Source: Streptomyces luomodiensis
Lineage (GTDB): Bacteria; Actinomycetota; Actinomycetes; Streptomycetales; Streptomycetaceae
Assembly (NCBI RefSeq): GCF_031679605.1
Contig: NZ_CP117522.1
Span: forward strand, 1,922,001 to 1,986,000
DNA length: 64,000 nucleotides
Direction: 5' to 3'
Shown: in pieces, positions 24,284 to 49,092 of the stretch
How the letters are laid out: every line of letters begins with the position of its first letter
Position numbering within the stretch: the first letter of the stretch is position 1
Notes under the pieces: generated by a model
Told to the model about the DNA's origin: nothing
Database searches by the model: none
Seen by the model: the letters and a program-made list of their open reading frames with translations, nothing else
Program-made: the position numbers and the translations under genes

Positions 24284-26392
24284 ATGCGAAGTTCGCGGCA
24301 GACCCGGAAAGCGAGCGAGTGTGCCCAGGACGGGCCAGGCGCCGACACTCGCCAGGCGCTTGAGTTGCAGGTATTGGGGCCCATGACCCGGCGCCGCGGG
24401 GGCCGGGAAACCCCGCTCGGACCGCCGAGGCACCGGGCGCTGCTGGGCCTGCTGCTCATCCGGCTCGGACATGTGGTCCCCACCGACCAGCTGGCGGAGG
24501 AGCTGTGGAGCGGGGCCCCGCCGCGGCGGCCCGCCGCCACCCTCCAGACCTATGTCTCCCACTTACGCCGCTCACTCGCCCCGGACTCCCCTGCGGAGGG
24601 TGCGCGGCTGTTGCGCTTTCAGGCCCCCGGATACGTCCTCGCGCTGGACCCCGAGCACGTCGACGCCCGTCGCTTCGAGGACCTGGTCGCGCAGGCCCGG
24701 CGGTGCGCGGACGCGGAACTCCTCCGGTCGGCCTACGATCTGCTCACGGCCGCGCTGGGGCTGTGGCGGGGCAGCCCCTTCCTGGGCCTGACCTCCTACG
24801 CACCGCTCGCCGAGGAAAGCTCCCGGCTGGAGCAACGGCGGCTGACGGCGGTCGAGTCGTACGCGGAGGTGTGTCTGGCCCTGGGGCAGCCGGACGCGGT
24901 GGTGGCCAGACTCGGCCCGGAGGCCCGCCACCACCCGATGCGTGAGCGCCTGATCGGCCATCTGATGACCGCCCTGTACGAGCTGGGCAGGCAGGCCGAG
25001 GCGCTTCAGCTCTACGAGCGCACCCGCGCGTGCCTGGCCGAGGAGCTCGGCGTGGACGTCGGCGCCGAACTCCAGCGCGTGCACACGCGTATCCTCCGCC
25101 ATGAGCTGACCGTGCCACCGCACGCCCGCGGCACGGAGGCCGGCGCCCCCGTCGCCCACCTCGGCCACCCTGTGGGCCACCTCAGCGGCGATGACGGCTC
25201 CCGGGACAGCGCGGTGGGCCGGTCCCCGGCGCCCCCGGGCGAGGTGCCGACGGTGACGCGGCCGAGGGAAGCGCGGTCGTTCGTCGGCCGGGAGCGTGAA
25301 CTGGCCGCGCTGCTGAGGCTCACCGGCGACGCTCTGCACGGGGCGGGGCATCTGACGGCGGTGGTCGGGGACATGGGTGTCGGCAAGACCCAGCTCATCG
25401 CGGAACTCGTGGCCCGATTGCAGGAGATGGGGCAGGAGGTGGTCTGCGCCCAGTCCTATGCCGGAGAGGGCGTTCCGGCCCACTGGATGTGGTCCCAGAT
25501 CCTCCGCCAGCTGGCACTCTCCCGCCCCGAGAGCTTCCGCGAAGCCACCGCGAGCCATGCCGGGTCACCCCATTTGCCGCTCCTGGAGCCACCTTCCGGA
25601 CCCCAGTCCTCCCAGACGCGCTTCCTCCTCCAGGACGCGGTGTGCGTCACCCTCACCGCCCTGAGCTCCGAACGGCCGCTGGTGCTCGTGCTGGAGAATC
25701 TGCATCTCGCCGACGGTCCGTCGCTGGATCTGCTCAGACTGCTCAGAGCCCGGCTGCACGGCAGCCGGCTGAGCGTCCTGGTGACGGTCAGCGACTCCTA
25801 CAGCCACGAGGAACCGGTCCGCGGCGAGGACCTGAGCGGGAAGCTGAGCGACATCCTCGGCGATCCGGGAACCCGGACGATGCGCCTGGAGGGACTGTCC
25901 GAGCAGGCCACCGAGGACCTCATCGCCGCGCAGGTAGGGGCCGGCGTGGACATCCGGGTGGTCCGCGCGCTGCACCGGCGCACCCTGGGCAATCCGTATC
26001 TGCTCCTCCAACTGCTCTCGATGCTCGGAACGACGAAATCCCTGCACGACCACGGCGTGGTCAGGGCGCTGCTCACCGAAGTGCCGCCGGATCTCCGCAA
26101 GCGGCTGAGCCGTCGGCTGGCGGCTCTGCCCGCGCGGACGCGACGGGTGCTGGAGGTGTGCGCCGTCCTCGGCGCCGAGGCCGATCTCGGCACCGTCAAA
26201 GCGGTCATGGAGGAGGGTGAGCACACCGCGGCCGCCGTGGACAGCGCCGTGCGCGGCCATCTGCTCACGGCCAGCGCCCAGCGGCCCGGGGTGTTCTCCT
26301 TCGCCTCCGTTTTCATCCAGGAGACCCTGCTCGGCGAGCTGGATCCGGATGACCGCAGCCGGTTGCACGCGCGGGCGGCGCAGCTTCGGTAG
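24284..26392 (+). CDS. SARP regulator with ATPase domain; carries a TTA codon
   Basis: A 702-residue AfsR/SARP-type activator. Residues 25-105 form the OmpR-like winged helix ('LGPPRHRALLGLLLIRLG...LQTYVSHLRRSL'), residues 110-275 the BTAD ('YVLALDPEHVDARRFEDL'), and from about 325 an AAA/NB-ARC ATPase with P-loop GDMGVGKT (362-369). It ends without the TPR region of AfsR. ATG 24284 has GGAGG 8 nt upstream. Codon 94 is TTA (24563-24565), implying bldA-dependent translation. It is the first gene of the candidate RiPP cluster and its likely pathway activator. Confidence 0.92.
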   Translation: MRSSRQTRKASECAQDGPGADTRQALELQVLGPMTRRRGGRETPLGPPRHRALLGLLLIRLGHVVPTDQLAEELWSGAPPRRPAATLQTYVSHLRRSLAPDSPAEGARLLRFQAPGYVLALDPEHVDARRFEDLVAQARRCADAELLRSAYDLLTAALGLWRGSPFLGLTSYAPLAEESSRLEQRRLTAVESYAEVCLALGQPDAVVARLGPEARHHPMRERLIGHLMTALYELGRQAEALQLYERTRACLAEELGVDVGAELQRVHTRILRHELTVPPHARGTEAGAPVAHLGHPVGHLSGDDGSRDSAVGRSPAPPGEVPTVTRPREARSFVGRERELAALLRLTGDALHGAGHLTAVVGDMGVGKTQLIAELVARLQEMGQEVVCAQSYAGEGVPAHWMWSQILRQLALSRPESFREATASHAGSPHLPLLEPPSGPQSSQTRFLLQDAVCVTLTALSSERPLVLVLENLHLADGPSLDLLRLLRARLHGSRLSVLVTVSDSYSHEEPVRGEDLSGKLSDILGDPGTRTMRLEGLSEQATEDLIAAQVGAGVDIRVVRALHRRTLGNPYLLLQLLSMLGTTKSLHDHGVVRALLTEVPPDLRKRLSRRLAALPARTRRVLEVCAVLGAEADLGTVKAVMEEGEHTAAAVDSAVRGHLLTASAQRPGVFSFASVFIQETLLGELDPDDRSRLHARAAQLR

Positions 26393-26645
26393 CGGCCTGA
26401 CCAGGTGCTTCCCGGCCGGAGGGACGCGTACCCCGGCAGGCTTGCGACCGGCGGCAAGCGGATCGCAAGGCATCCTCCAGCGGGCGGGCGAGGTTCCGGA
26501 AAGGGACCTGGCGCAGACTGTGGATCAGCAGCCGGCGGTTCCCCGGGAGCCGGTTCCCCGGACCCCGCCACGTCCGAACGGCGCCGCCCGCACCGATGTC
26601 CCGCTGCATTCCGGGTTCGCTCCTTCTTCGTCAGGAAAGAGCCGC

Positions 26646-27827
26646 ATGTACACGTCGGAGTCGCATCTGCCCGCTACCCGAGAAGATTTCGTCCTGGCCT
26701 GCCTGGAGGGGTCCGGCGAGAACGCGAGACGATGGCTGGAGGCCCTGGACGGGGTGTGCTCGGAGACGGTGGCCCGGCACGCGGCCTCCGTGGACCAGGA
26801 GCGCAGGTCCCCGGCGGAATCGCTCAAGGCGCTGCGGGACATCGGTGCCTTCGGGGTGCAGATCCCCGTATCGCACGGAGGGCTCGGCCTCGGGAACGCC
26901 ATGGCCGCCCTGGCCGTGGAACGGACGGCACGGGCGTGTGCGTCCACGGCCGCCATCCTCATGTTCCACTACCAAGTCGTGCACCGCACCGTGCGCTACG
27001 GCGACGAACTCCAGCAGAAGAGGGACCTCCCCGCGATGGCCGCCGGTGAGCGGATCGCGGCCAGCGCGTGGACCGAACCCGGCCCGTCGAAGAGCAAGTC
27101 GGATGTGAAAACGTCTCTCGAGGGCCGCGCGGACGCCCTGTTCGTCGAGGGCACCAAAACGTACTGCACCGGCCTGGACTCCGCCTCCGTGATAGACGTG
27201 CTCGTGAACGCCGCCACCGACGACGGCCACGGCCCCACCTTCGTCCGGGTGGACGCGGACCACCCGGGGGTGGGCCGGGAGATCTACCCGATGCTGGGCC
27301 TGCGCGGCACCAGTACCGGGACGGTCACCCTGTCCCGCGTCCCGGTGTCGCCGTCCGCTGTGATCGGCGGCGTGGGAGAGGCCCGGCAGCTGATGCGCGC
27401 CAACCACGAAACCCCGCTGAACCCCGCCCTGCTGGCGCTCGGCATCGCGTCGTCCGCGCTCGGCCGGGCCCTTCAGGTGGTACGGGAGCAGGCCGCCGAG
27501 CCGGCCCCGGTCCTGCTCTCCGAAAGCCGTGCGCACCGCCTGGCCGCGACGACGGTGGCCCTGGAGAGCGTCTACGCCTACGCCGCCCGTCTGGTACGCG
27601 GTATCGAGGCGGCACCGCACGACGCGTACGCGGCCTCCAGCAAGCTCAAGGTGGCGGCGACCACGGTGGCCGAGGACCTCACCAGAAGCCTCACGCATGT
27701 GGTGGGCTCCCGCGGCTTCCTCGTGGAGTACGAGCTGGAGCGCCACCTCCGCGACGCCCAGGCGACCGCGTTGATGGGGCCGGGAAACGAGTTGTGTCTG
27801 CGGCGCATCGCGGACGACCTGGTGTGA
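26646..27827 (+). CDS. acyl-CoA dehydrogenase-like flavoprotein (RiPP cluster)
   Basis: A 393-residue protein of the acyl-CoA dehydrogenase fold: N-terminal helical part with 'GVQIPVSHGGLGLGNAMAAL', a middle beta part ('SAWTEPGPSKSKSDVKTSL', 'YCTGLDSASVIDVLV') and a C-terminal 'HVVGSRGFLVEYELERHLRDAQATALMGPGNELCLR'. The ending is of the type found in secondary-metabolism dehydrogenases that act on carrier- or peptide-bound substrates rather than CoA esters. AGGAAAG precedes ATG 26646. It lies 28 bp before the DUF692 gene. A desaturating or oxidising step on the peptide, or on a small precursor, is an inference. Confidence 0.8.
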   Translation: MYTSESHLPATREDFVLACLEGSGENARRWLEALDGVCSETVARHAASVDQERRSPAESLKALRDIGAFGVQIPVSHGGLGLGNAMAALAVERTARACASTAAILMFHYQVVHRTVRYGDELQQKRDLPAMAAGERIAASAWTEPGPSKSKSDVKTSLEGRADALFVEGTKTYCTGLDSASVIDVLVNAATDDGHGPTFVRVDADHPGVGREIYPMLGLRGTSTGTVTLSRVPVSPSAVIGGVGEARQLMRANHETPLNPALLALGIASSALGRALQVVREQAAEPAPVLLSESRAHRLAATTVALESVYAYAARLVRGIEAAPHDAYAASSKLKVAATTVAEDLTRSLTHVVGSRGFLVEYELERHLRDAQATALMGPGNELCLRRIADDLV

Positions 27828-27855
27828 ACGACTGAGCAGATCTGGAGGCAAGCGC

Positions 27856-28764
27856 GTGACGGATCTCATCGAAGCCCCGGCGCGGCGGCATACCAAGCCG
27901 GACCCGATCGGGGCAGGCTTCCTCTATCACTGCGCCCCGAAATTCGCCGACCTGTACCGCGCCCTGGTGGAGTGCGGCGGCCGGATCGACATGATCGAGT
28001 ATCTGGCGACCCATTTCGGCTCGGACGTCGAATACGTGGCGGAGGTGAACCGCTCTCTGGGCGATCCGCCCTCCACGCTCCACTGCTACGAATACATGAT
28101 CGGGTGTGTGGACCGTCCCGACGAGCGGACGATCCGCAAGCTGCGGCGCATGGCCGAGCTGGCCAACTGCCAGTACATCGGCGAACACGTCGGCATGATG
28201 GGCACCGGTGAGCGGTACTCCGGCACCTTTCTCCAGCCGTTCGGCACCGACGAGCAGACCGAGCGGTTCATCGACAATCTGCGGGACCTCGAGGGTGTCC
28301 CCGGCTGTCCGCTCACCATCGAGAACCAGTCGCAGGTCTACAACCAGATCGGCCCGCGCTCCATCTGCGAGCAGGTCCGGGACATCGCCCTCGGCGCCGA
28401 TGTGGGAATCCTGCTGAGCCTGTCGAATTTCATCATCGCCGAGCGGTTCGTCTCCATGGACCGCGAACGGGAACTGGCCGCGATCCCCCTGGACCACGTG
28501 TGGCAGGTGCATCTCCCGCTGGGGCGGGCGGAGGAGCTGAACGACCCCGGGCTCGGCCTCGACTGGCGGCGGGAGGAACAGCGCTGGGCCAACAGCACCC
28601 TGGAACAGCTCTTCCGGGAGCCCTCGTTCCGGCCGGTCTCGGTGATCTTCGAGATCGAGGACGCGGGCACCCCGTCCCACGCCCGGCCGGAGGAGCTGCG
28701 TGACGCCCTGGACTGGGCGCGCGAGCTGCTCGGGGCCGGCACCGAAGTGGCGGTGGCGTCATGA
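27856..28764 (+). CDS. divergent DUF692 (MNIO) family protein
   Basis: A 302-residue TIM-barrel protein that I assign to the DUF692/multinuclear non-haem iron oxidase family. Corresponding landmarks are His76 ('TLHCY'), Glu110-His111 ('YIGEHVGMM'), Glu156-Asn157 ('LTIENQSQVY'), 'GILLSLSNFIIAE' (184-196) and His219 ('WQVHLPLG'). In typical members the fourth block is LLLDVNN; here the metal-binding Asp appears as Ser188, so iron loading may differ. MNIOs oxidatively modify peptide residues, guided by a partner protein. GTG 27856 has GGAGG 7 nt upstream, and the stop overlaps the next gene (ATGA). A relative such as a xylose isomerase-like barrel is the alternative. Confidence 0.7.
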   Translation: MTDLIEAPARRHTKPDPIGAGFLYHCAPKFADLYRALVECGGRIDMIEYLATHFGSDVEYVAEVNRSLGDPPSTLHCYEYMIGCVDRPDERTIRKLRRMAELANCQYIGEHVGMMGTGERYSGTFLQPFGTDEQTERFIDNLRDLEGVPGCPLTIENQSQVYNQIGPRSICEQVRDIALGADVGILLSLSNFIIAERFVSMDRERELAAIPLDHVWQVHLPLGRAEELNDPGLGLDWRREEQRWANSTLEQLFREPSFRPVSVIFEIEDAGTPSHARPEELRDALDWARELLGAGTEVAVAS

Positions 28765-29606
28765 GCCTGCGCGAAGTGCAGAGCTTCCTCGCGGAGTACG
28801 TACGGGACAGTGACGTCCGCCGCCGCTGCGACGGCGGCGAGCTGACTGCCGTACTCGACGGGCGGGGGCTCACGACGGAGGAGCGCGGGCTCATCGAGCA
28901 GATCGAGCTGGCCGATCTCACCAAGGTGGCGGAAACGGTCCGGCGTGAGCGGTTCGACCGGCTCAGCTCGGTCTTCGCGCTGCTCTTCGACCATCTGGCG
29001 CCCCACTGCGACGTCCCCGCGCTCTATCGCCGCTTCGACGACGAGCACCGGCACGGCTGGTGGCAACGGCGCGCGGAGATCCGCCGGTTCGAGGCGTTCG
29101 TGGTCGACTTCATCGTCGATCACCGGCTGCCGCCCTATCTGGTGGACCTGTGCCGGCTGTGCTCCGCCATCACCACGATCGCCGAGTCGCCCAAGGGACA
29201 GGCGCCCCCGCACGCCGATCCGCCCGGGGCGGTGACCGTGCGCGGGAACTACCGGGTCGTTCTGCGACAGCCCTACGAGGTGCTGTCCTTCCGGTACGAC
29301 GTGCTGCCCCTCCTCGACGCCCCGGACACCATCACCCCGGTCACCACCCCGGGTGCCCGGAGGGTCCTCGTACAGCGCATCTGGGACATGCACAAGCGTT
29401 GCCAGGTCTTCGACCTGGCGGAGGAACCGCTGATCGGCTCGATCGGCGAGGAACCGGCGAGTGTGCTGGAACTCGCGGGGCGGCTGCCGGCCTACCCCTA
29501 CGAGACGTTGTTCTCGGAGGTGGCCGAGCTGCACCGGGAAGGCATCGTGCACCTCGTCGTGCCCCCTGAGCTCGCTGGTGAGCTCACCCGCCCGGGTGGG
29601 CGTTAG
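28761..29606 (+). CDS. putative MNIO partner/recognition protein
   Basis: A 281-residue soluble protein with no certain family. Residues 1-90 are helical and start 'MSLREVQSFLAEYVRDSDVR', resembling the leader-binding or DUF2063-like partners encoded beside MNIO genes. Residues 90-170 hold 'WWQRRAEIRRFEAFVVDFIVDHRLPPYLVDLCRLCS', and the C-terminal part ends in an apparent winged-helix-like segment. It overlaps the DUF692 gene by 4 bp, which implies matched synthesis and a complex, and it is followed by the peptide gene. The role as peptide-presenting partner is inferred from position. Confidence 0.6.
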   Translation: MSLREVQSFLAEYVRDSDVRRRCDGGELTAVLDGRGLTTEERGLIEQIELADLTKVAETVRRERFDRLSSVFALLFDHLAPHCDVPALYRRFDDEHRHGWWQRRAEIRRFEAFVVDFIVDHRLPPYLVDLCRLCSAITTIAESPKGQAPPHADPPGAVTVRGNYRVVLRQPYEVLSFRYDVLPLLDAPDTITPVTTPGARRVLVQRIWDMHKRCQVFDLAEEPLIGSIGEEPASVLELAGRLPAYPYETLFSEVAELHREGIVHLVVPPELAGELTRPGGR

Positions 29607-29614
29607 CCAGTGGG

Positions 29615-29649
29615 GGTGTCCGCCGCCGCCCTCGCGGGTGACGGACACC
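29615..29649. promoter_or_regulatory. hairpin upstream of the peptide gene
   Basis: GGTGTCCG (29615-29622) and CGGACACC (29642-29649) are perfectly complementary 8-bp arms around a 19-nt loop. The hairpin falls between the partner-protein stop and the peptide ribosome-binding site. It could be a processing or partial termination signal. Confidence 0.5.
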
Positions 29650-29704
29650 GATGTTATGACCCGTCGTCAAGCGCCGGGTTGGATCTCACCAAGTGGAGGC
29701 TGTC

Positions 29705-29863
29705 ATGCAGAAGCGTCGTAGCGCCGGCCCCGGCACCATCGTCGTGAAGTTCACCGGTTCCACCGAGACCCGCGCCGTCGCCGCGGCTCCCGCCGAGGCC
29801 ACCGGGCGCGGCCGCAAGAGCGGGCCGGGCACCATCGTGGTCAAGTTCACCGGCAACGCCTGA
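29705..29863 (+). CDS. putative RiPP precursor peptide with two repeated cores
   Basis: A 52-residue peptide with GGAGG (29695-29699) 5 nt before ATG. It contains two copies of GPGTIVVKFTG, at residues 8-18 (preceded by RRSA) and 40-50 (preceded by GRGRKS), separated by an Ala/Thr/Glu-rich linker 'STETRAVAAAPAEATGRGRK', and ends in Asn-Ala. The 11 shared codons differ at five third positions, all synonymous, so the amino-acid sequence of the repeat appears to be selected. No Cys is present; Thr, Lys, Phe and the C-terminal Asn are candidate modification sites. It lies 98 bp after the partner gene and is followed by a strong hairpin. The precursor role is an inference; a small structural protein is the alternative. 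Confidence 0.72.
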   Translation: MQKRRSAGPGTIVVKFTGSTETRAVAAAPAEATGRGRKSGPGTIVVKFTGNA

Positions 29864-29932
29864 CCGGTGGTGCGCGCTCGTCGGCGGACCGCCGGGCACG
29901 TCCCTGACGGGGTGCCGGACGAGTGATGAGTC

Positions 29933-29967
29933 GAGTGGTCCGTGCCGTATATCGGCACGGGCCACTC
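29933..29967. terminator. strong hairpin after the peptide gene (terminator/attenuator)
   Basis: GAGTGGTCCGTGCCG (29933-29947) pairs with CGGCACGGGCCACTC (29953-29967): a continuous 15-bp stem with one G-U pair and the 5-nt loop TATAT. It lies 70 bp after the peptide stop and 39 bp before the next gene. Partial termination here would give more peptide mRNA than enzyme mRNA, as in many RiPP operons. Confidence 0.75.
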
Positions 29968-30005
29968 TTCCGCCCCGGCCGATCACCGAGAAGGGAGATC
30001 CGCCG

Positions 30006-30731
30006 TTGACCGCCTCCGTGCGGCGAGCAGCCGCCCCCACATCCGAGGTTCTGGAGTTGCTCCGGCGTCGGTCGAGCGTCCGGAACTTCACCGGAGAGCC
30101 TCTGGAGCCGCACATACTGGACGCCCTGCTCGACGCGGCCCTCCGGGCGCCGACCTCCTTCAACTTCCAGTCCTACTCCCTGGTGACCCTGGTCGACGAG
30201 GACCGCAGACAGGAACTCGCCGAGATCCTGGGCAAGGACTTCGTACGGCAGTGCGCCGCGTTCGTCCTCGTCTGCTGCGACCTCGCGGCCCTGCCGGAAC
30301 AGGGCGACAACTACGGGGTGCCGCTCGGCCAGTGGTCGGCGGACGCCGCCCTGTCCGCCACCATCGACGCCTCGATGGTGGGCATGTGCCTGTCGCTCGC
30401 CGCCGATTCGCTGGGGCTGGGGACCGTCATGATCGGGGCGGTGCGCCGAGCACCGGACCGGGTGGCGGAGGTGTTCGCGCTGCCTCCCGCCGTCACCCCC
30501 CTGTTCGGCGTGTGCATCGGGTGGGCCGCGACGACACCGGCCGCCCGGCCACGGCTCCGTTCCGACCTGATGATCCATCGCGAGCGCTACCGGCAGACCG
30601 GGGCCGAACGGGCCGCGCTGCCGAGCGACGCCACCCTCCGCACCCCCGCCGGGCCGGTCACGGAGCAGGACCTGCACGAGTGGCGGGCACAGGTGGTCAA
30701 GGGGCTGAGGACCTTCCGCGGACCCGGCTGA
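30006..30731 (+). CDS. nitroreductase-family FMN oxidoreductase
   Basis: A 241-residue NfsA/FRP-type nitroreductase starting with TTG, preceded by AAGGGAG at about 9 nt. The FMN-binding start 'LLRRRSSVRNFTGEPL' (about 18-33), 'ALRAPTSFNFQSYSLV' (about 45-60) and 'LGLGTVMIGAVRR' (about 138-150) are typical. Such enzymes use FMN and NAD(P)H for reductions; some in natural-product clusters oxidise azolines or peptides. There is no YcaO gene here, so an azole dehydrogenase role is unlikely. It is the first enzyme gene after the peptide and its hairpin. Confidence 0.85.
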   Translation: MTASVRRAAAPTSEVLELLRRRSSVRNFTGEPLEPHILDALLDAALRAPTSFNFQSYSLVTLVDEDRRQELAEILGKDFVRQCAAFVLVCCDLAALPEQGDNYGVPLGQWSADAALSATIDASMVGMCLSLAADSLGLGTVMIGAVRRAPDRVAEVFALPPAVTPLFGVCIGWAATTPAARPRLRSDLMIHRERYRQTGAERAALPSDATLRTPAGPVTEQDLHEWRAQVVKGLRTFRGPG

Positions 30732-30806
30732 CAGGCCCCCCGCGCCGCACCGGACCGCCCGCCGGCCGCGTCATGCCACCCCCACCCGAGACATGCGAAG
30801 GTGAAC

Positions 30807-32639
30807 ATGTGCCGCGTCTATGGATACATCAACCGTGACGTACCACCGACGCGCCTGGCGCACACGGGTGCCCTTCTGCACCACGGCGGGCCGGACGGGC
30901 GCTTCCTCGACCACGGCCCCGGCTGGGCCCTGGGGGCCACCCGGCTGGCGGTGATGGCTCCCCGGCACGGGGCGCAGCCCTACACCCTCGGTCCGATCCG
31001 GGTGGTGTTCAACGGCGAGATCTACAACCACCGGGAGTTGCGCGAGCGGCTCGCCCAGGACGGCTACCCCATCGCCGACCCCTGCGACGGCGCGGTGCTC
31101 CCCGCCCTCTACCACCGGTACGGCGCCTCCTTCGCCGACCATCTGGACGGCATGTACGCCATCGCCGTGATGGATCTGCGGGACGGGCCGCGGCTGGTGC
31201 TCGCCACCGACGACACCGGCGTCAAACCCCTCTACTACCACCGCGACCGGCACGGTGGCCTCTCCTTCGCCTCCGAGATCGCGGCCCTGCGGTATCTCTC
31301 GGGCGCGGGCGCCCGGCAGGCCCCCGACGCGCTGGACACCTTCCTGACGACGAAGACCCCGCTCGGCACCCGCTCCGTCTACCAGGACATCACGGCCCTG
31401 GAGCCCGCGCGGACGATGACGGTCGACCCGCACGGCCGGATGCGGTGGCACCGCCGCGCACCGGCCGCTCCCCCGCCCGAGCCGGGGATGAGCGGACCGG
31501 CGGCGAGCGGACCGGCGGCGGCCGGGCTGGAGCGGGCCGCCGGCGCGGTGCGCGACCTGCTCCGCACGGAGGTCCACCGGCTCGCCGTGGCGGACGTCCC
31601 GGTGGCCGCCGTCCTCAGCGGCGGCCTCGACTCCTCCCTCGTCACCGGGCTGCTCACGGAGGTGGTGGACGACCTGCACGCCTTCCACATCCGCTACCGG
31701 GGCTCCTGGCCCGCGGACGAGTCCGCCCACGCGCGCGCCGTGGCCGCGGAGCGGGGCGTCCGGCTGCACGAGGTCGAACTCGATCCCGCCCGCATACCGG
31801 ATCTGCTGCCGAAGGTCCTGCGCCACCTGGGGCAGCCGAACGCCGACCCCATCACCGTCAGCACCTACGCGCTCTTCGAGGCCGTGCGGGACGCGGGCTT
31901 CACCGTGGCGCTCACCGGCGACGCGGCGGACGAGCTGTTCGGCGGCTACGACCGGGTCACCGAGGGGGTCGCGGCCCGGGGCGACTGGGGCACGGGCTAC
32001 GTCCGCGCCCTGGCCGCCGTACCGTCCCCGCTGCGCACCCGGCTGTACCGGCCGGACTACCGGGATCTGCTGCGGGAGACCCACACGGCCGAGGAGGAGC
32101 TGCTGGAGCGGGTACGCGGCCGGGATGGTGACCGTCTTACGGCCATGACCGAGGTGGAGATCGACCTGCGGATGCCCGCGTACCACCTGCGCCGCGTCGA
32201 TCACCTGAGCATGGCCAGCGCGATCGAGGTACGGCCGCCGTTCTGCCAGCGCTCCCTCGTGGCGGCGGCGCGCCGGCTGCCGGCCCACCTGAAGGTGCAC
32301 CGGGGCCGGGGCAAACGCGTGCTGCACGCCGCCGCCCGGGGCGTGGTGCCCGAGACCGTACGGAACCGGCCCAAACAGCCCTTCACCCTGCCCATCACGG
32401 CGATGCTCGCCCCGGGCAGCGCGCTGTTCGCCCACGCACAGGAGGTGCTGGCACCGGCGGAGCTGCGGACCGGCGGAGCGCTGGACCCCGGCGGGGTCAC
32501 CGCCTTGCTGCGCCGGCAGGCCGTCGCACCCGACGCCGGCTCGGCGCTCGCCGTCTGGTCACTCATGGTCTTCGAACTCTGGCGGAGGCAGGAGAGCGAG
32601 CCCGTCGCGGTTCCGCGCCTCAGCGAGCAGGTGGCGTGA
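30807..32639 (+). CDS. glutamine-dependent asparagine synthetase (AsnB type)
   Basis: A 610-residue class II amidotransferase. ATG 30807 is chosen over GTG 30801 because it puts the catalytic Cys at residue 2 (MCRVYGY) as the N-terminal glutaminase requires; 'FNGEIYNH' and the ammonia-domain contacts follow. The synthetase domain has the PP-loop SGGLDSS (271-277) and 'TGDAADELFGGYDR'. It adenylates a carboxylate and transfers ammonia from glutamine. Unlike lasso cyclases, it keeps a full glutaminase half and has no lasso leader peptidase nearby. Within this cluster it may amidate the peptide or a small acid. It overlaps the next gene by 4 bp. Confidence 0.9.
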   Translation: MCRVYGYINRDVPPTRLAHTGALLHHGGPDGRFLDHGPGWALGATRLAVMAPRHGAQPYTLGPIRVVFNGEIYNHRELRERLAQDGYPIADPCDGAVLPALYHRYGASFADHLDGMYAIAVMDLRDGPRLVLATDDTGVKPLYYHRDRHGGLSFASEIAALRYLSGAGARQAPDALDTFLTTKTPLGTRSVYQDITALEPARTMTVDPHGRMRWHRRAPAAPPPEPGMSGPAASGPAAAGLERAAGAVRDLLRTEVHRLAVADVPVAAVLSGGLDSSLVTGLLTEVVDDLHAFHIRYRGSWPADESAHARAVAAERGVRLHEVELDPARIPDLLPKVLRHLGQPNADPITVSTYALFEAVRDAGFTVALTGDAADELFGGYDRVTEGVAARGDWGTGYVRALAAVPSPLRTRLYRPDYRDLLRETHTAEEELLERVRGRDGDRLTAMTEVEIDLRMPAYHLRRVDHLSMASAIEVRPPFCQRSLVAAARRLPAHLKVHRGRGKRVLHAAARGVVPETVRNRPKQPFTLPITAMLAPGSALFAHAQEVLAPAELRTGGALDPGGVTALLRRQAVAPDAGSALAVWSLMVFELWRRQESEPVAVPRLSEQVA

Positions 32640-33664
32640 TGCGTGCCTACATCGCCCACGCCCAGGGCAGCCCCTGCCCCACCCTGGTGCTGCCGTCGCC
32701 GATCGGCTGGCCCGGGGACGAGGAGACGCTCTCCTGGATCCTCACCGGTGTCCACCGCGCGCTGTGCGAACGCGGGGCCGCTCATGTCCTGAAGATCGCG
32801 CTGGTGGCGCCGCCGGCCGACCCCGGATGCGATCTCGCGTACCGCTTCGTCCAGGTGGTGCCGGGCGCCGTCCCCCGGTTCGAGTTCGGGGGCAGTTGCG
32901 GGCACTCGATCCTGAGTTCGGTGCTCGCGGTGAGCCAGATGGGCATGGTGCCGCGGCTCCGGCCGGGCGTACGGGTGCGGGTACGGGTCCTCACCAACGA
33001 CGACACCGTGGTGTGCGAGCCCCTGGACACCACCCCGGCCGGGGATCGCGTCACCTTCACCGTCGGTTTCCGGCGCACCGCGCCGACCCCGCTGACGGGC
33101 ACCCTGCTGCTGGGCGAGACGGTGAGCGTGCTGCGCACCGGGGGGCAGGAGATCCCCTATTCGCTCGTCTCGCTCGGCAACCCCTATGTCTTCGTCGACG
33201 CGACGGAGCTGGACATCCCCGACGAGGCAGCGCTGTTCGCGGCCGGGGCACCGCTGTTCCGGGCGCTGACCCGCATCCGCGAGCTGGTGGCGCTCCGGCT
33301 GGGCTGGGACTCCCTGTGCTTCCCCAAGGTGGCGGCCCTGCTGCCGGGCGGGGCGGGAGTTCTCGCCGCCCGCGCCGTATCGGTGCCCTCCTGGCATCCG
33401 ACGCTCGCCCTCACCGGGGCCACCTGTCTGGCGACCGCCGCCGTCCAGGTGGGTACCGTCCCGCACCGGCTGGCCGGAGTGGACGCGAGCGGGCGGCTCA
33501 CCGTCCGCACCGCCGCCGGACGTACCGAGGTCCGGGCCGCCACGGCCGCCGGCCGGCTGGTGGAGGTGAGCGTGTCGCCGAAGTCGGCCCGTCTCGTCAC
33601 CGCACTCGACCTGCCGGAAGCGGGTGCGCGCAGCCGCGCGGTGCCCGAACCGTCCAAGCCGTGA
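32636..33664 (+). CDS. PrpF/DapF-fold isomerase-like protein
   Basis: A 342-residue protein with the two-domain diaminopimelate epimerase/PrpF fold. The first-domain Cys motif is 'GGSCGHSILSSVLAVSQMG' (about 82-100); the second domain has 'SLGNPYVFVDATEL' and 'SWHPTLALTGATCLATAA' with a Cys in the matching place. The layout is closer to PrpF (2-methylaconitate isomerase) than to DapF. Such enzymes shift double bonds or epimerise at a carbon next to a carboxylate. GTG 32636 overlaps the AsnB stop; ATG 32639 is the next codon. Its substrate here is unknown. Confidence 0.75.
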   Translation: MMRAYIAHAQGSPCPTLVLPSPIGWPGDEETLSWILTGVHRALCERGAAHVLKIALVAPPADPGCDLAYRFVQVVPGAVPRFEFGGSCGHSILSSVLAVSQMGMVPRLRPGVRVRVRVLTNDDTVVCEPLDTTPAGDRVTFTVGFRRTAPTPLTGTLLLGETVSVLRTGGQEIPYSLVSLGNPYVFVDATELDIPDEAALFAAGAPLFRALTRIRELVALRLGWDSLCFPKVAALLPGGAGVLAARAVSVPSWHPTLALTGATCLATAAVQVGTVPHRLAGVDASGRLTVRTAAGRTEVRAATAAGRLVEVSVSPKSARLVTALDLPEAGARSRAVPEPSKP

Positions 33665-35142
33665 ACGGAGTCCCCGTGCGATCACCACAGCTCTACGACC
33701 TTCTCCTGCGGGGCGGCACGATCGTGACCCCGGACGGAGCCCGCCCCGCGGACGTCGCCGTACTGGACGGCCGGATCGCGGCACTCCTCCCACCGGCGGC
33801 CCCCGCGGCGGGTCCCGCGGCGAAGGCGACGCTGGACGCCACCGGACGCCATGTCCTGCCGGGGCTCATCGACTCGCATGTCCACTTCCGCACCCCCGGT
33901 CTCACCCACAAGGAAGAGTGGCGGACAGGGTCCATGGCCGCGGTGGCCGGTGGGGTCACCACCGTCATCGACATGCCCAATACGGTTCCGCCGCTGATCA
34001 CACCGGAGGACCTGGCCACCCGCCGGCGGCTGATCGAGGGGCAGAGCCTGGTGGACTACCGATGCCACGCCGGGGTCGATCCCTCGCGCGTGGCGGCGAT
34101 GCGCGACTGGGACCGGGCCGAGGCCGACTCCTTCAAGGTCTTCCTCAGCAGCCACCACACCACACCGACCGTGGTCCGCGACGTCCGCACGCTGCGGCGG
34201 ATCTTCGCCATCGCCGCGGACACCGGTGTCACCCTGCTCTTCCACGCGGAGGACGACACCGTCTTCAGCCTGCTCGACCAGCGGCAGGCGCCGCCCGTGC
34301 GGTACAGCGAGTACGAACGCCATCGGCCACGGACCGGCGGCATCGTGGCGACCGCCCAACTCATCAATCTGACGGCCGAGTTCGGCGTACGCACCCATGT
34401 GGTCCACGTGTCCACGCGGGAGGAGACCGATCTGCTGGCGGCGGCGGCGAGCGCCGGCATCCCGATCACCTTCGAGGTCACCGGACACCATCTGACGTTC
34501 GTGGACGCCGACATCCGGCGGCTCGGACCGCGGATCAGGCTCCGTCCGGCGATCCGGGACGAGGCGGACCGGGACCGGCTGTGGGAGGCGGTCCGCACGG
34601 GCGAGGCGGCGACCGTGGGCAGCGACCACTCACCGCATACGGCGCTGGAGAAGGCCCGCCCCGTCCCGGATGTGCCGCCGGGTCTGCCCGGGGTGCAGGA
34701 GCTGTTCGGCACCCTCTGGCGGGGACTGCGCAGCCGCTGGCCACAGGAGGCCACGGAGACCCTGATGGCCGTCGTCGCGGAACGCCTCGCGCTGGCTCCG
34801 GCCCGGCTGTTCGGACTCGCCGACCGGAAGGGCAGCGTCGAGGTGGGCAAGGACGCCGACCTGGTCGTCGTGGACGCCGAGGCACCGTGGACGATGACAC
34901 CCGGCCGCATCCACACCAAGAACGGCTGGTCGGCGTACGAGGGCAGCGAACTCCTCGGCGCCGTCGAGGCGACCGTCCGGCGGGGCGAGGTGGTGTACCG
35001 GCAGGACGGCTCCGGCGAGGTGTTCGGTGAACGCAACGGGAGGTGGCTGCCCGCCCGGGGCTCCGGGGCGGCGGGCACCGCCCCGGGCGGCCCTGCCGGG
35101 CGCCCCCGCCTCCATACCGCCGCGGCGCCCTCGGTGGGATGA
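33661..35142 (+). CDS. dihydroorotase-like cyclic amidohydrolase
   Basis: A 493-residue amidohydrolase of the dihydroorotase/allantoinase group. Metal ligands are visible as His73/His75 in 'GLIDSHVHFRTPG', His in 'LLFHAEDD', His in 'THVVHVSTREE' and the Asp of 'VGSDHSPHT'. The C-terminal 'NGWSAYEGSELLGAVEATVRRGEVVY' is typical. These enzymes open or close cyclic amides and ureides. Its place inside an accessory operon argues against housekeeping pyrimidine synthesis; it may form or open a ring on the product. GTG 33661 overlaps the previous stop; GTG 33676 is an alternative. The last 25 residues are low-complexity. Confidence 0.85.
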   Translation: MNGVPVRSPQLYDLLLRGGTIVTPDGARPADVAVLDGRIAALLPPAAPAAGPAAKATLDATGRHVLPGLIDSHVHFRTPGLTHKEEWRTGSMAAVAGGVTTVIDMPNTVPPLITPEDLATRRRLIEGQSLVDYRCHAGVDPSRVAAMRDWDRAEADSFKVFLSSHHTTPTVVRDVRTLRRIFAIAADTGVTLLFHAEDDTVFSLLDQRQAPPVRYSEYERHRPRTGGIVATAQLINLTAEFGVRTHVVHVSTREETDLLAAAASAGIPITFEVTGHHLTFVDADIRRLGPRIRLRPAIRDEADRDRLWEAVRTGEAATVGSDHSPHTALEKARPVPDVPPGLPGVQELFGTLWRGLRSRWPQEATETLMAVVAERLALAPARLFGLADRKGSVEVGKDADLVVVDAEAPWTMTPGRIHTKNGWSAYEGSELLGAVEATVRRGEVVYRQDGSGEVFGERNGRWLPARGSGAAGTAPGGPAGRPRLHTAAAPSVG

Positions 35143-35236
35143 TGGGCCCTTCCGCCCGTACGCCGATCATGGTGCCGGGGACGGGCCGCGCTCCCGCCGC
35201 CACCGGCCGATCACTGGAGGTCTTCGCATCGGTAAC

Positions 35237-36514
35237 GTGACAGGGAGGCTCCGCCGGCCGGCGGGAAAGTCCCTCGCTTCTCGCGATGTCGCCCTGCTGT
35301 GGAGTGCGACGGTCTTCGATTCCGGTGCGACCTGGGTCATCCGCATCGTGATCTTCGTACGTATCCTGGAGCAGTACTCGACCTCCACCCTGGCGGTGGT
35401 GGAACTCGTCGGCATCCTGCCGTCGTTGCTGCTCATGCCGCTGGCCGGAAGCCTCGCCGACCGGTACAACGCCCGCAGGCTCTCGCTGCTCTCCATGGCC
35501 ACCCAGATGACGTGCCTGGCGGCCCTGCTCCTGGTGTTCCACCACGGTCCGGCCACTGTCGCGGCCCTCTACGCGCTGCTGACGGTCAGCAACGCGTTAT
35601 GGCAGCCGGCCCGGCAGGTGTGGCTCTACCGGCTGGTGGAGCCCAGCCAGTACACCGCCGTCAACGCGACCATCGGCTCGGTGCAGGGCCTGATGACGGT
35701 CATCGGCGCGGCCGCCGGCGGCGTGCTGACGGCCTGGAACCCGGACCTGACCATCCTGCTGGCCCTCGCCGCCCAGTCCTGTGCCGGCATCGGCACCCTC
35801 ATCGCGCGGTACCCGGCCGCCACCGGCACCGCGCCCGCCGAGCCCGGTGCCCGCTCGCTGCTGCGGGACGCACGGGACGGCGTGCGGCTGGTGAACCGCT
35901 ACCCCCTGGCCCGGTCCATCATCTGGGTCGGCATGGCATGGGGCCTGATCAGCGGCGGGTTCAACGTGCTCATCGCGGGACTGGCCCTCAAGGAACTGCA
36001 CAGCGGAAGCGGCGGGCTCGGGCTCTTCTACGTCGTGGACGGGACCGCGGTGGTGATCGGCAGTTGGTGCACCGCCCGCCTCCGGCGAGCCGGCCATCTG
36101 CCGGGCTACGCCCTGGCGTACGTCGCCCAGGGCGCGTTCTGGGCGCTTACCTTCGCCGCCGGAAACGTCACCCTGGGCCTGCTGCTCTTCGGCGTCATGC
36201 GGCTGGCGAGCGGGGTGATCATCGCGCTGGACACCACCATCCTCCTGGAGACCGTGCCCGATTCCCTCCGCGGACGGGTCACCAGCCTCCACATGACGAC
36301 CTACAACGCGGTGTCCCAGCTCTCCCTCGCGCTGATCAGTGGCCTCCTGGCCGTCGTCGACATCCAGTCGGTGGGCATCGCCACCGGTGTCCTGTCCACG
36401 GCCGTCGGCGCGCTGTGGTGGATCACCACCGCCCGCCGGGCCCATCACACCTACCTGACCGCGGCCCAGGACACCCCACCCCGCCCCGTGGCGACGCCAC
36501 CGCACGCCGAATGA
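35237..36514 (+). CDS. MFS exporter of the candidate RiPP cluster, with a TTA codon
   Basis: A membrane protein of about 425 residues with ten to twelve hydrophobic segments and the MFS loop motif 'GSLADRYNARRLSLL' between helices 2 and 3. It resembles MFS_3-type drug exporters and probably exports the product and confers self-protection. The start is uncertain: GTG 35237 is 16 nt from GGAGG (35216-35220), whereas an in-frame ATC at 35228 has ideal spacing (7 nt). Codon 121 from GTG is TTA (35597-35599), pointing again to bldA. It is the last gene of the cluster, convergent with the Lrp gene. Confidence 0.88.
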   Translation: MTGRLRRPAGKSLASRDVALLWSATVFDSGATWVIRIVIFVRILEQYSTSTLAVVELVGILPSLLLMPLAGSLADRYNARRLSLLSMATQMTCLAALLLVFHHGPATVAALYALLTVSNALWQPARQVWLYRLVEPSQYTAVNATIGSVQGLMTVIGAAAGGVLTAWNPDLTILLALAAQSCAGIGTLIARYPAATGTAPAEPGARSLLRDARDGVRLVNRYPLARSIIWVGMAWGLISGGFNVLIAGLALKELHSGSGGLGLFYVVDGTAVVIGSWCTARLRRAGHLPGYALAYVAQGAFWALTFAAGNVTLGLLLFGVMRLASGVIIALDTTILLETVPDSLRGRVTSLHMTTYNAVSQLSLALISGLLAVVDIQSVGIATGVLSTAVGALWWITTARRAHHTYLTAAQDTPPRPVATPPHAE

Positions 36515-36530: not shown

Positions 36531-37574
36531 TCATCGGGTGTGGTGATCCGGCGACAGGATGTCGTGGGCCCGGGGGCCGAGTAGGAGGTCGTCGTCGCGG
36601 TCGATCCATTGGCGGCGCAGGACGGACAGGGCGATCAAGGTGTTGAGGCCGTTGAGGCCGGGGAGTGCGCCGAGGTCCTCGGTGACGAACCGGGACAGGT
36701 GGTCCTCGTCGGAGAATACGCCGTGGTGGAGGATCGAGGCCGGTCCGGCGGTCATGACGGTGAACCGCGCGCAGGAGTGCTCACCGAGTGCGGTCAGCAC
36801 GGCGGGGATGTGCCGCGGCTGGACGTCGAGGGTGAACAGCGCGGTGATCGGGAACCCGAGGACGGCCGGTTCGATCTCCACCCGAGGGCGGACGGCGCCT
36901 GATTCCAGCAGCGACTGGATCGTCCGGTAGGCGGTGGACCGGCTGACGTCGAGTTCGCGGGCGACCTGCGCCGCGGAGATCCGGCTGTCCTCGACCAGCA
37001 GCCGGAGCGTCCGGAACTCGATCTCGTTGAGGAGCCCGACGCCGGCGGGGGCCGCACCGGGGAGGACGTCGGCCTGCCGGCGCAGCTCCTCCGTCTGCCG
37101 GGCGGTGAGCCGGTCGAGCCGCCAGGTGAACGCTTCGCGGGCGGAGCGCAGTACCAGGTGCGACTGGATGGACGCGATGCCGGGGATCTCGGGCAGCGTC
37201 CGGGTCAGCAGACGGCGCGGGTCCGTGCCGGGCAGGGGATAGAGCGTGCAGTAGATGTCCGAGTCGCCGGTGGTGGTCATGAGCGACTGGGCCTGCGGCA
37301 CCTGCTGAATGGCGGTCGCGACGTCGACCGTGGCACCCGGCCGGCACTTGATCCACACCACGTAGGGATTGCCGGTGGTGAGGAGCGACCAGTGCACGGT
37401 GCCGATGAAGCGCAGGAGCCGGAGCTGCTGGAGCCGCTGGATGCGCCGCCCCGCCGTGCTGGCCGAGGTGCCCAGGATCTCGGCGACCGTATTCAGCGGC
37501 GCTCGGGGCGCGATCTGCAGCGCGGCCACCAGATCGAGGTCCGCGTCGTCGATCCCGTGCTCCATCTCTCGCAT
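36531..37574 (-). CDS. double-module Lrp/AsnC regulator
   Basis: A 347-residue regulator with two tandem Lrp/AsnC units. The first HTH is near residues 10-50 ('LDLVAALQIAPRAPLNTVAEILG') with a RAM/AsnC domain to about 150; the second HTH is near 185-225 ('FRTLRLLVEDSRISAAQVARELDVSRSTAYR') with a second RAM domain. This duplicated form is common in actinobacteria and usually controls the divergent gene. Here that is the AbgT transporter with its hydrolase, so it probably senses their substrate or an amino acid released from it. Confidence 0.9.
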   Translation of the reverse strand: MREMEHGIDDADLDLVAALQIAPRAPLNTVAEILGTSASTAGRRIQRLQQLRLLRFIGTVHWSLLTTGNPYVVWIKCRPGATVDVATAIQQVPQAQSLMTTTGDSDIYCTLYPLPGTDPRRLLTRTLPEIPGIASIQSHLVLRSAREAFTWRLDRLTARQTEELRRQADVLPGAAPAGVGLLNEIEFRTLRLLVEDSRISAAQVARELDVSRSTAYRTIQSLLESGAVRPRVEIEPAVLGFPITALFTLDVQPRHIPAVLTALGEHSCARFTVMTAGPASILHHGVFSDEDHLSRFVTEDLGALPGLNGLNTLIALSVLRRQWIDRDDDLLLGPRAHDILSPDHHTR

Positions 37575-37587
37575 GCGGACAGCCTAC

Positions 37588-37637
37588 ACAGAGCGATTCT
37601 GTCGTCATACATCTGATGCTTGACACAAAGAAGCATC
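37588..37637. promoter_or_regulatory. inverted repeats in the Lrp/AbgT divergent promoter
   Basis: Two inverted repeats fill the gap: ACAGA-GCGAT-TCTGT (37588-37602) and GATGCTT-9 bp-AAGCATC (37615-37637). The second overlaps a TTGACA -35-like hexamer (37620-37625) reading towards the transporter gene. They are the likely binding sites of the divergent Lrp-type regulator. Confidence 0.65.
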
Positions 37638-37691
37638 GCACTGTCTGATGACGATCCATATCGCCACCGATCAGCAGCGGGAGGGCCTCTC

Positions 37692-39242
37692 ATGACCGAG
37701 GTGACGACGAAACGACGGCGTTCGCCGACGACGGTGATCCTGCGCGTGCTGGACTTCGTGGACCGGGCGGGGAACAAACTGCCGCACCCGTTCTGGCTGT
37801 TCGTGATCCTGAGCGGGCTGATCGTGGCGGTGAGCTGGCTGCTGGCCACGCTCGATGTCTCGGTGGTCTCACCTGCCGACGGCAAGGTCATCGAGGTCAA
37901 GAGCATCGTGTCCGACGCCGGTGTGCAGATGGTCCTCGGCGACCTGATCACGAACTTCGTGAACTTCCCGCCACTGGGGCTGATCGTCGTGGTCATGCTC
38001 GGCGTCGCGATCGCGGACGGCACGGGTCTGCTCCCCGCGCTGATGCGCGCCGCGCTCACCCGGGTCCCGGCCAAGATGGTGACCTTCGCCGTGGCGCTGA
38101 CCAGCATGTTCTCCCATGTGGCCGGAGACGCCGCGTTCGTGGTGATGATCCCGCTCGGCATGATCGCGTTCCGTGCGGTGGGCCGCAGCCCGATCATCGG
38201 TGCGGTCGTGTCGTACGTGGCCGTGGGCGGCGCGAGCAGCGTCAGCCCGGTGATCGAAGGATCCGACGCGATCTTCGCCGGCCTGACCACCTCGGCGGCG
38301 CACACCATCGACCCGTCCTACTCGGTCACCCCGGTGTCCAACTGGTACTTCTCCGCGGCGTCCTGCCTGTTGCTGGCGGTCGTGATCACGCTCGTCACCG
38401 AAGCCGTCGTCGCGCGCCGGGTCGCCGCGATGAACGCCGTCGAGCCGGAGCTGACCGACGTCGACGAGCTGCCCGACATGTCCCTGTCCGCCGACGAGCG
38501 CACGGGGGTACGCCGGGCGATCGCCGCCGGGGCGCTCTACCTGGCCGCGGTCGTCCTCGCGATGCTGCCCGCCGGCTCGCCCCTGCGCGGCGACGGCGGT
38601 TCCATCGTGGCATCGCCGCTGCTCGACAATGTCGCCGTGGTGCTGATGGTGTTCTTCATGGTCATCGGCATCGTGTACGGACTGACCGTGCGCACCATCA
38701 CCGCCGCGCAGGACATCCCGGACCTGATGGCACGGGGGCTGCGCGAACTGGTCCCGGTCCTGGTGCTGTTCTTCGCGGTCTCGCAGTTCCTCGGCTACTT
38801 CAAGTGGACCAACCTCGGACAGGTCATCGCGATCAGCGGCGCCCGGGTGCTCGATTCGCTCGGCGCGCAACCCGTGGTGATCTTCGTCGGCGCGGTGCTG
38901 CTGGTCAGTCTGCTCAACCTGTTCCTCACCAGCGGTTCGGCGATGTGGTCCCTGGTCGCACCGGTCCTGGTGCCGATGCTGATGCTGCTGAGCATCCGGC
39001 CGGAGACCACCCAGGCGCTGTTCCGCATCGCCGACGCGCCCACCAACAGTCTCAGCCCGATGAGCCCGTACTTCGTCATCGCGCTGGGGTTCATCCGCCG
39101 CTACCGGCCGTCCGCGGGGATCGGCACGTTGATGTCCCTGGTCCTGCCGCTGGCCGTGGTCAACCTCGTCGTATGGCTGGCGATGTTCCTCGCCTGGTAC
39201 GCGCTGGGCATACCGCTCGGCCCCGGCGTCCCCGTCCGGTAA
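37692..39242 (+). CDS. AbgT-family transporter
   Basis: A 516-residue membrane protein of the AbgT (p-aminobenzoyl-glutamate transporter) family, with about 12 hydrophobic segments. It shows 'FVDRAGNKLPHPFWLFVILSGLIV' at the N-terminus and 'SPMSPYFVIALGFIRRY' near the C-terminus, both conserved in the family. GGGAGG precedes ATG 37692. The adjacent carboxypeptidase G2-like gene suggests uptake of a folate breakdown product or another N-acylated amino acid that is then hydrolysed. Some AbgT members export sulfonamides, so direction is not certain. Confidence 0.9.
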   Translation: MTEVTTKRRRSPTTVILRVLDFVDRAGNKLPHPFWLFVILSGLIVAVSWLLATLDVSVVSPADGKVIEVKSIVSDAGVQMVLGDLITNFVNFPPLGLIVVVMLGVAIADGTGLLPALMRAALTRVPAKMVTFAVALTSMFSHVAGDAAFVVMIPLGMIAFRAVGRSPIIGAVVSYVAVGGASSVSPVIEGSDAIFAGLTTSAAHTIDPSYSVTPVSNWYFSAASCLLLAVVITLVTEAVVARRVAAMNAVEPELTDVDELPDMSLSADERTGVRRAIAAGALYLAAVVLAMLPAGSPLRGDGGSIVASPLLDNVAVVLMVFFMVIGIVYGLTVRTITAAQDIPDLMARGLRELVPVLVLFFAVSQFLGYFKWTNLGQVIAISGARVLDSLGAQPVVIFVGAVLLVSLLNLFLTSGSAMWSLVAPVLVPMLMLLSIRPETTQALFRIADAPTNSLSPMSPYFVIALGFIRRYRPSAGIGTLMSLVLPLAVVNLVVWLAMFLAWYALGIPLGPGVPVR

Positions 39243-39276
39243 ACCCCTCACCCCACCCACAGATTGGTACACCCCC

Positions 39277-48902: not shown

Positions 48903-49092
48903 GTGCGCAGCGGGTGCACCTGCGTGCGGCTGCTTCGAACCGATGTCGCCGCGCTGGCTTGATCGCATCGCTCGCCCGCTGTCGGCGTCTCCTCACAGAC
49001 AACCCACAGGCACCTCTCCCCCGTCCTACGTGACGCGAGAGGCGCCCGGGACCGACGGGACGTCTGCGCACGGGGTTTTGAGGAGAGGATCA

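Follow-up and report, generated by a model that had tools for sequence, protein, structure and literature searches.

A repeat-peptide operon with a divergent MNIO in Streptomyces luomodiensis appears to represent a novel type of ribosomal natural-product biosynthesis

The question raised by positions 24284-36514 of the stretch of DNA analysed here (the window, G000:C1:1922001-1986000, 64 kb within the 10.04-Mb genome of Streptomyces luomodiensis) is what can be made by an operon in which a divergent multinuclear non-heme iron-dependent oxidative enzyme (MNIO, DUF692) and its putative partner are encoded together with a short repeat peptide, a nitroreductase, an acyl-CoA-dehydrogenase-like flavoprotein (ACAD), an AsnB-type amidotransferase, a PrpF-like isomerase and a dihydroorotase-like enzyme (DHO). 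The initial annotation had proposed a candidate cluster for a ribosomally synthesized and post-translationally modified peptide (RiPP) built around the MNIO and the peptide, and this is upheld, since a conserved short precursor stands beside the modifying enzymes in 8/8 loci of this type; that the operon is a RiPP pathway is well supported. The pathway seems to be of a novel ribosomal type, and we consider it probable that the operon belongs to an undescribed family that makes natural products on a peptide template, in which a hydroxylase-type MNIO and a four-enzyme kit (AsnB, PrpF, ACAD and DHO) lead to a small product. The observations themselves concern the conservation and order of the genes, the families to which the enzymes belong, the residues of their active sites and the existence of the kit as a separate cassette, and it is from these that we infer every chemical step. 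Re-annotation from open reading frames (ORFs), hidden Markov models (HMMs) and GC by codon position bore out, by HMM families, the order of ten genes from a SARP-family activator to an MFS exporter. With 4-base overlaps between MNIO and partner, AsnB and PrpF, and PrpF and DHO, and with remaining gaps of 28 to 253 bases, the earlier description of most genes as overlapping or almost adjoining is fair.

Conservation and codon changes mark the peptide as genuine and subject to selection. GGAGG is located five bases upstream of its ATG, and GP[GS]T[IV]V, searched for in six frames of the whole window, occurs twice, both times within the peptide. The two repeat units differ from each other by five synonymous and no amino-acid changes, and comparison with S. 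physcomitrii (L012) gives two synonymous codon changes in unit 1, three in unit 2 and no nonsynonymous change in either, while the spacer differs. The motif lies 3' of the MNIO-partner pair in 8/8 loci of this MNIO type, with two readable copies in the window, L010, L011 and L012, three in L021, seven in L015, at least nine in L013 and at least ten in L014; the last two counts are minimal because the L014 array is partly N and the L013 array spans frame changes. The repeat period is 18 residues in L014, L015 and L021, and 13 to 14 in L013. Loss of the peptide from relatives that keep the enzymes, the outcome that would have spoken against the cluster, was thus seen at none of these loci. The L021 precursor, used as query, matched in 3/392 Streptomyces genomes, each time at the genome's own MNIO locus, with a sensitivity that is limited because G000 and G399, whose precursors have two copies, were missed. 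A Gly/Ser change in the motif tracks the presence of AsnB and DHO in the operon, which concerns two close relatives only and is not claimed as meaningful. Cys, the modified form of which is the hallmark of methanobactin, bufferin and oxazolin precursors, is absent from the peptide, and the literature searched, which covered few subscription papers, yielded no description of the motif.

A contig scan retrieved four relatives of the MNIO, in Streptomyces sp. S465 (100% identity), NBRC 110028 (97%), S. physcomitrii (79%) and Streptacidiphilus sp. 4-A2 (55%), and whole-genome searches added G018, G012 and G248 (52-55%). When 100 relatives were searched at E 0.001, nine genomes gave MNIO matches, six of which hold only distant MNIOs (22-29% identity). 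In samples that overlap, and with relatives found by genome searches only, matches were obtained in 5/392 genomes of the genus at E 1e-30 (the own genome and the same-species G399, judged from its coordinates to be probably S465, counted), in 2/394 of the family at E 1e-12 (the own genome and G493, probably Streptacidiphilus by its repeats and split reading frame) and in 1/394 of the class (the own genome). The 7 non-window loci (L010 to L015 and L021) all have the genes for ACAD, MNIO, partner, peptide, nitroreductase and PrpF, and in L013, L014, L015 and L021 the MFS gene separates the peptide gene from that of the nitroreductase. The SARP protein is a likely pathway regulator; its ortholog adjoins the operon in L010 and L011, and none was found beside the operon in L012. 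A gene for a JmjC/cupin-type oxygenase stands at the operon end in G248 (L021 18256-19563) and G018 (L022 2117-3376), and none follows the operon of the window. AsnB and DHO are located within the operon in L010 to L014 (L014 being continued in L022), and not in L015 and L021. Outright absence of the two genes from G012 and G248 was considered and dismissed, since a search of both genomes for DHO and AsnB retrieved a second locus with a SARP-like gene, AsnB, PrpF, ACAD, DHO and a flavin reductase.

The MNIO matches PF05114 in all six aligned members, each of which keeps H76, H111, E156, N191, H219 and E266. The MNIO comparison also took in L004, L005, L006, L007 and L085, L008 and L009 being dropped for want of a passing frame. 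Five of the six Fe1/Fe2 ligands of TglH (His71, His107, Glu151, Asp184, His216 and Glu258) are retained in every sequence; the bridging Asp184, replaced by Ser (S188 in the window), is absent in 6/6, as are the Fe3 ligands Asp229 and His231, with Asn187 kept. The HxD motif is also missing in active PesH and PflD (PMC13060819; here and below, what is said of papers cited by PMC number refers to their accessible portions). The predicted model of the MNIO (pLDDT 60.7) has the MbnB/TglH barrel fold, and a structure search with it ranked TglH 8hci first (E 7.4e-11), then TglH 8hi7, 3bww and MbnB, sugar epimerases following from rank 8. Sequence search of PDB entries with the MNIO profile and sequence returned no MNIO, and the NCBIfam cutoffs of the MNIO subfamilies were not reached (ApyH 54.9/400, BufB 50.7/310, HvfB 25.8/360, ChrH 15/600). 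The adjoining gene encodes the putative partner, for which no significant Pfam family was obtained (four weak matches, each from a single member and none better than E 0.011, were discarded) and no significant match by Foldseek alone (best E 0.6); a second look after Foldseek ranked TglI first.

The active sites of the remaining enzymes are partly unusual. The ACAD has LMGPGN where solved short-chain ACADs have YEGTSE, the Glu of which we take to be catalytic, and LMGP[GS]N is present in 6/6 aligned operon ACADs. AsnB has the N-terminal Cys, the SGGLDSS loop and a TGDAADELFGGY motif, in which an Asp stands in place of the Glu expected from E. coli AsnB; the lasso peptide cyclase cutoff (NF033535) was not reached (119.2/525 bits). 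The PrpF-like protein has the Lys and Cys of its family: K53, C88 and C264 are invariant, and K53 and C88, which we assume to be the catalytic pair, align with K and C of YbhH and are found in 7/7 operon sequences. The usual motifs, taken by us to be the metal site of cyclic amidohydrolases, are present in the DHO-like enzyme, which scores just above the cutoff of pyrC_multi (282.0 against 279.05); the allantoinase and dihydroorotase equivalog models are all below cutoff among the 25 of its 73 matches listed.

The same kit also occurs without the peptide. At E 1e-90, the cassette DHO as query gave 28 loci in 27/295 Streptomyces genomes. Two of these loci belong to MNIO operons (G000 and G018); the cassette itself is represented by 26 loci in 25/295 genomes, including G012 and G248, where the MNIO operon lies elsewhere. 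The cassette-type ACAD adjoins DHO in 26/26 loci and PrpF is visible in 25/26, the remaining one being near a contig end. In 15 of the 16 larger regions examined (L040, L041 and L076 to L089) the order is AsnB-PrpF-ACAD-DHO, L078 being cut. The motif is absent from all 16, as is any relative of the partner, nitroreductase or precursor at E 1e-3. Operon and cassette have in common the four enzyme families, the AsnB-PrpF-DHO order and the active-site signatures; the cassette differs in that its ACAD, about 29% identical to that of the operon, is located between PrpF and DHO, and in that varied other genes take the place of MNIO partner and repeat peptide. These neighbours are cupin and flavin reductase genes by Pfam and CysE-like, CysK-like, TauD-like, aldolase-like and FAD-monooxygenase-like genes by sequence reading. 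A canonical MNIO (22% identical) lies near the G220 cassette (L085 7493-8812, minus strand), which may be coincidental. Across operon and cassette, MGPxN replaces the EGTSE of short-chain ACADs in 22/22 sequences, AsnB has TGDxADE in 19/19, PrpF has G[SN]CGHS and TGAxC in 22/22, and DHO has HVHFR and GSDH in 21/21 and the Lys motif in 20/21, its lack in L013 being probably due to frame changes. The shared oddities suggest, at the level of sequence, a common chemistry of operon and cassette. In midpoint-rooted FastTree trees, which omit L010 and, for AsnB and ACAD, also L013, the operon sequences form clades for PrpF (7 sequences, 0.964), AsnB (4, 0.981) and ACAD (6, 1.0), and the five operon DHOs form no single clade. 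A known non-peptide pathway with the same gene order had been named as the finding that would undo the RiPP proposal; a matching order, AsnB-PrpF-(ACAD)-DHO, does exist, 16 of its regions having no peptide of this kind, but no published pathway was found for it in the literature searched.

From these elements a pathway can be proposed. The precursor would present two to at least ten copies of GP[GS]T[IV]VxK, and the MNIO, bound to its TglI-like partner, would oxidise one residue per copy; because the Fe3 site is missing, a two-electron hydroxylation, by analogy to PesH and PflD, appears most likely. The nitroreductase and the ACAD-like flavoprotein might then act on the modified unit by dehydrogenation or further oxidation, and the unit would be released by proteases encoded outside the operon. 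On the released unit or its terminus, AsnB could form an amide on a carboxylate, PrpF could isomerise or epimerise, and the DHO-like enzyme could close or open a cyclic amide, with export of the product by the MFS protein and control by the SARP; closing or opening a ring on the peptide, as the initial annotation had it, is one option only. The strongest statement that we can make on the mechanism is that the substrate of the kit is probably a small unit whose formation does not always require a peptide, because the cassette occurs in 25/295 genomes and 16 of its regions have no such peptide. Likewise, since the kit is common to a cassette without such a peptide, the product probably contains a small unit that the cassette also makes. 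A narrower version seems rather doubtful to us, in which the peptide would be a consumable feedstock, an octapeptide array in which the Fe3-less MNIO converts Thr, Val or Lys in each copy, the kit then builds a small nitrogen heterocycle by orotate-like logic, and the cassette of other Streptomyces makes a like unit from free amino acids. We know of no MNIO acting on Thr, Val or Lys, apart from carbamoylated Lys. The orotate-like order, amide formation followed by ring closure by a dihydroorotase relative and flavin desaturation, is a hypothesis drawn by analogy from the enzyme families.

A conventional multi-core RiPP, in which repeats would be excised as modified peptides of about 8 to 18 residues, AsnB would amidate the C-terminus, PrpF would epimerise a residue and the DHO-like enzyme would act as peptidase or close a terminal ring, is a tenable alternative that on balance we do not expect. 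AsnB-like enzymes do amidate or nitrilate RiPP C-termini (PMC13060819), and the whole motif is conserved, Gly, Pro and Lys included, which is more than a single-residue scaffold would seem to need; yet the same families and signatures form a cassette without such a peptide in 16/16 regions, and there is no protease among the HMM matches of the operon. A relative without catalytic activity, comparable to PesX next to PesH (PMC13060819), with the flavoenzymes doing the chemistry, would agree with the loss of the bridging Asp and of the Fe3 Asp and His, but such a role is improbable for the sole MNIO found in the operon, which has a TglI-like partner of its own and keeps six site residues in every aligned sequence. 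Very improbable is the chance cotranscription of an MNIO-peptide unit for metal handling or signalling with an unrelated small-molecule cassette: the cassette does stand apart in 25/295 genomes, and at a separate locus in G012 and G248, but PrpF, ACAD and nitroreductase are inside the MNIO operon in 7/7 non-window loci, the operon PrpF, AsnB and ACAD form clades of their own, and the peptide has no Cys.

The claim that no known MNIO pathway combines AsnB, PrpF and dihydroorotase has to be narrowed, since an AsnB-like enzyme is part of the nitrilobacillin (pes) pathway (PMC13060819); for the full set, no described pathway was found in the literature searched. Like the operon, pes joins an MNIO without the Fe3 HxD, a partner and an AsnB-like enzyme on a ribosomal peptide; unlike it, pes is Bacillus-related, involves Asp hydroxylation, a C-terminal nitrile, an alpha-ketoglutarate-HExxH enzyme and M16 peptidases, and its genes as listed in the accessible text include no ACAD, PrpF, DHO or nitroreductase (PMC13060819). 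The ten operon genes gave no Pfam match for an alpha-ketoglutarate-HExxH enzyme or an M16 peptidase, no dedicated HExxH model having been used. Pairing of MNIO and nitroreductase is known from the PflD/PosD fusions (PMC12636437), with Asp hydroxylation and dehydrophenylalanine formation, and PflD, as the operon MNIO, has no Fe3 motif (PMC13060819); the differences are the fused protein, the Pseudomonas host, the Phe-Asp target and a HEXXH enzyme, and AsnB, PrpF, DHO and ACAD are unmentioned in the portions available (PMC12636437). The 3-thiaglutamate pathway shares the TglH/TglI-like pair and the peptide as scaffold for a small product, but uses a tRNA-dependent enzyme that appends Cys to the C-terminus and a full iron-ligand set (PMC10880893); no such Cys-appending enzyme is among the HMM matches of the ten operon genes. 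In the StdDE (homocitrulline) pathway of Streptomyces thermodiastaticus, too, the MNIO is from Streptomyces, its target being a modified Lys within a very short core; the pathway differs by YcaO-TfuA, a carbamoyltransferase-protease and a SNKEWQE motif, the accessible text not mentioning AsnB, DHO, ACAD, nitroreductase or a repeat (PMC13174530). A survey of MNIOs mentions MNIO-nitroreductase fusions, and the part of its text that is available has no match for AsnB, DHO, ACAD or PrpF (PMC12452194). The karnamicin cluster, with AsnB, ACAD and amidohydrolase genes, was rejected as a counterpart, being based on nonribosomal peptide and polyketide synthases (PMC9838390). Searches for RiPPs with DHO, AsnB, nitroreductase and ACAD, for PrpF in RiPPs or gene clusters and for ACAD with multi-core RiPPs found no description of this operon type in the literature searched.

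Among enzyme classes the MNIOs are young, and few of their reactions have been solved. Each repeat of the precursor is an internal replicate, its invariant motif is devoid of the usual MNIO target residues and a defined part of the iron site is lost, so that the target and the metal requirement of this MNIO are directly testable. The kit, present in about one in twelve of the sampled Streptomyces genomes and without a publication in the literature searched, is tied by the operon to a substrate that is encoded in a gene, a link that could reveal the chemistry of operon and cassette alike.

Table 1. Features of the operon in window coordinates, and cassette examples in their own regions
Feature	Position	Strand	Evidence
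SARP-family activator with AAA ATPase domain	24284..26392	+	HMM (BTAD 135.4 bits)
ACAD flavoprotein, 393 aa	26646..27827	+	HMM, three domains
Divergent MNIO (DUF692), 302 aa	27856..28764	+	PF05114 55.4 bits, cutoff 25
TglI-like MNIO partner protein, 281 aa	28761..29606	+	No Pfam family; structure comparison
Cys-free precursor peptide, 52 residues, GPGTIVVKFTG x2	29705..29863	+	ORF, motif, conservation
Repeat unit 1, GPGTIVVKFTG	29726..29758	+	
Repeat unit 2, GPGTIVVKFTG	29822..29854	+	
Nitroreductase-family flavoprotein	30006..30731 (start 30006 or 30018)	+	PF00881 67.2 bits, cutoff 23.5
AsnB-type amidotransferase	30807..32639	+	TIGR01536 323.9, cutoff 267.1
PrpF-like isomerase/epimerase	32636..33664	+	PF04303 40.8, cutoff 27
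Dihydroorotase/allantoinase-like (DHO) cyclic amidohydrolase	33661..35142	+	PF01979 73.1, cutoff 25
MFS exporter	35237..36514	+	HMM
AsnB-PrpF-ACAD-DHO cassette examples	L040 8081-13594; L041 4205-10224; L076-L089		

Some gene calls were corrected in the re-annotation: the ACAD starts near 26646 instead of 26217 and the MFS gene near 35237, and in the mechanical list the ORFs 29942-30838 and 33624-35030 are in the wrong frame for the nitroreductase, which is shorter, and for DHO, respectively. A tRNA-Ser(CGA) called by ARAGORN at 32844-32937 (plus strand) falls within the PrpF gene and was rejected as a false positive, since Rfam does not support it at the gathering threshold. Next to the operon, and not counted in it, a double Lrp/AsnC-type regulator is divergent from an AbgT-type transporter and an M20 peptidase (36531-40422). 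Elsewhere in the window are genes for a predicted protein of 943 residues that shows strong coding bias and matches no Pfam family at E 1e-4 (49030-51861, plus strand), a 533-residue linalool dehydratase/isomerase-family protein (16488-18089, plus strand; PF18566, E 7e-120) and a 2775-residue type I polyketide synthase that unites AMP-binding, KS, AT, DH, KR, PP-binding and TE domains in a single chain (54110-62437, minus strand).

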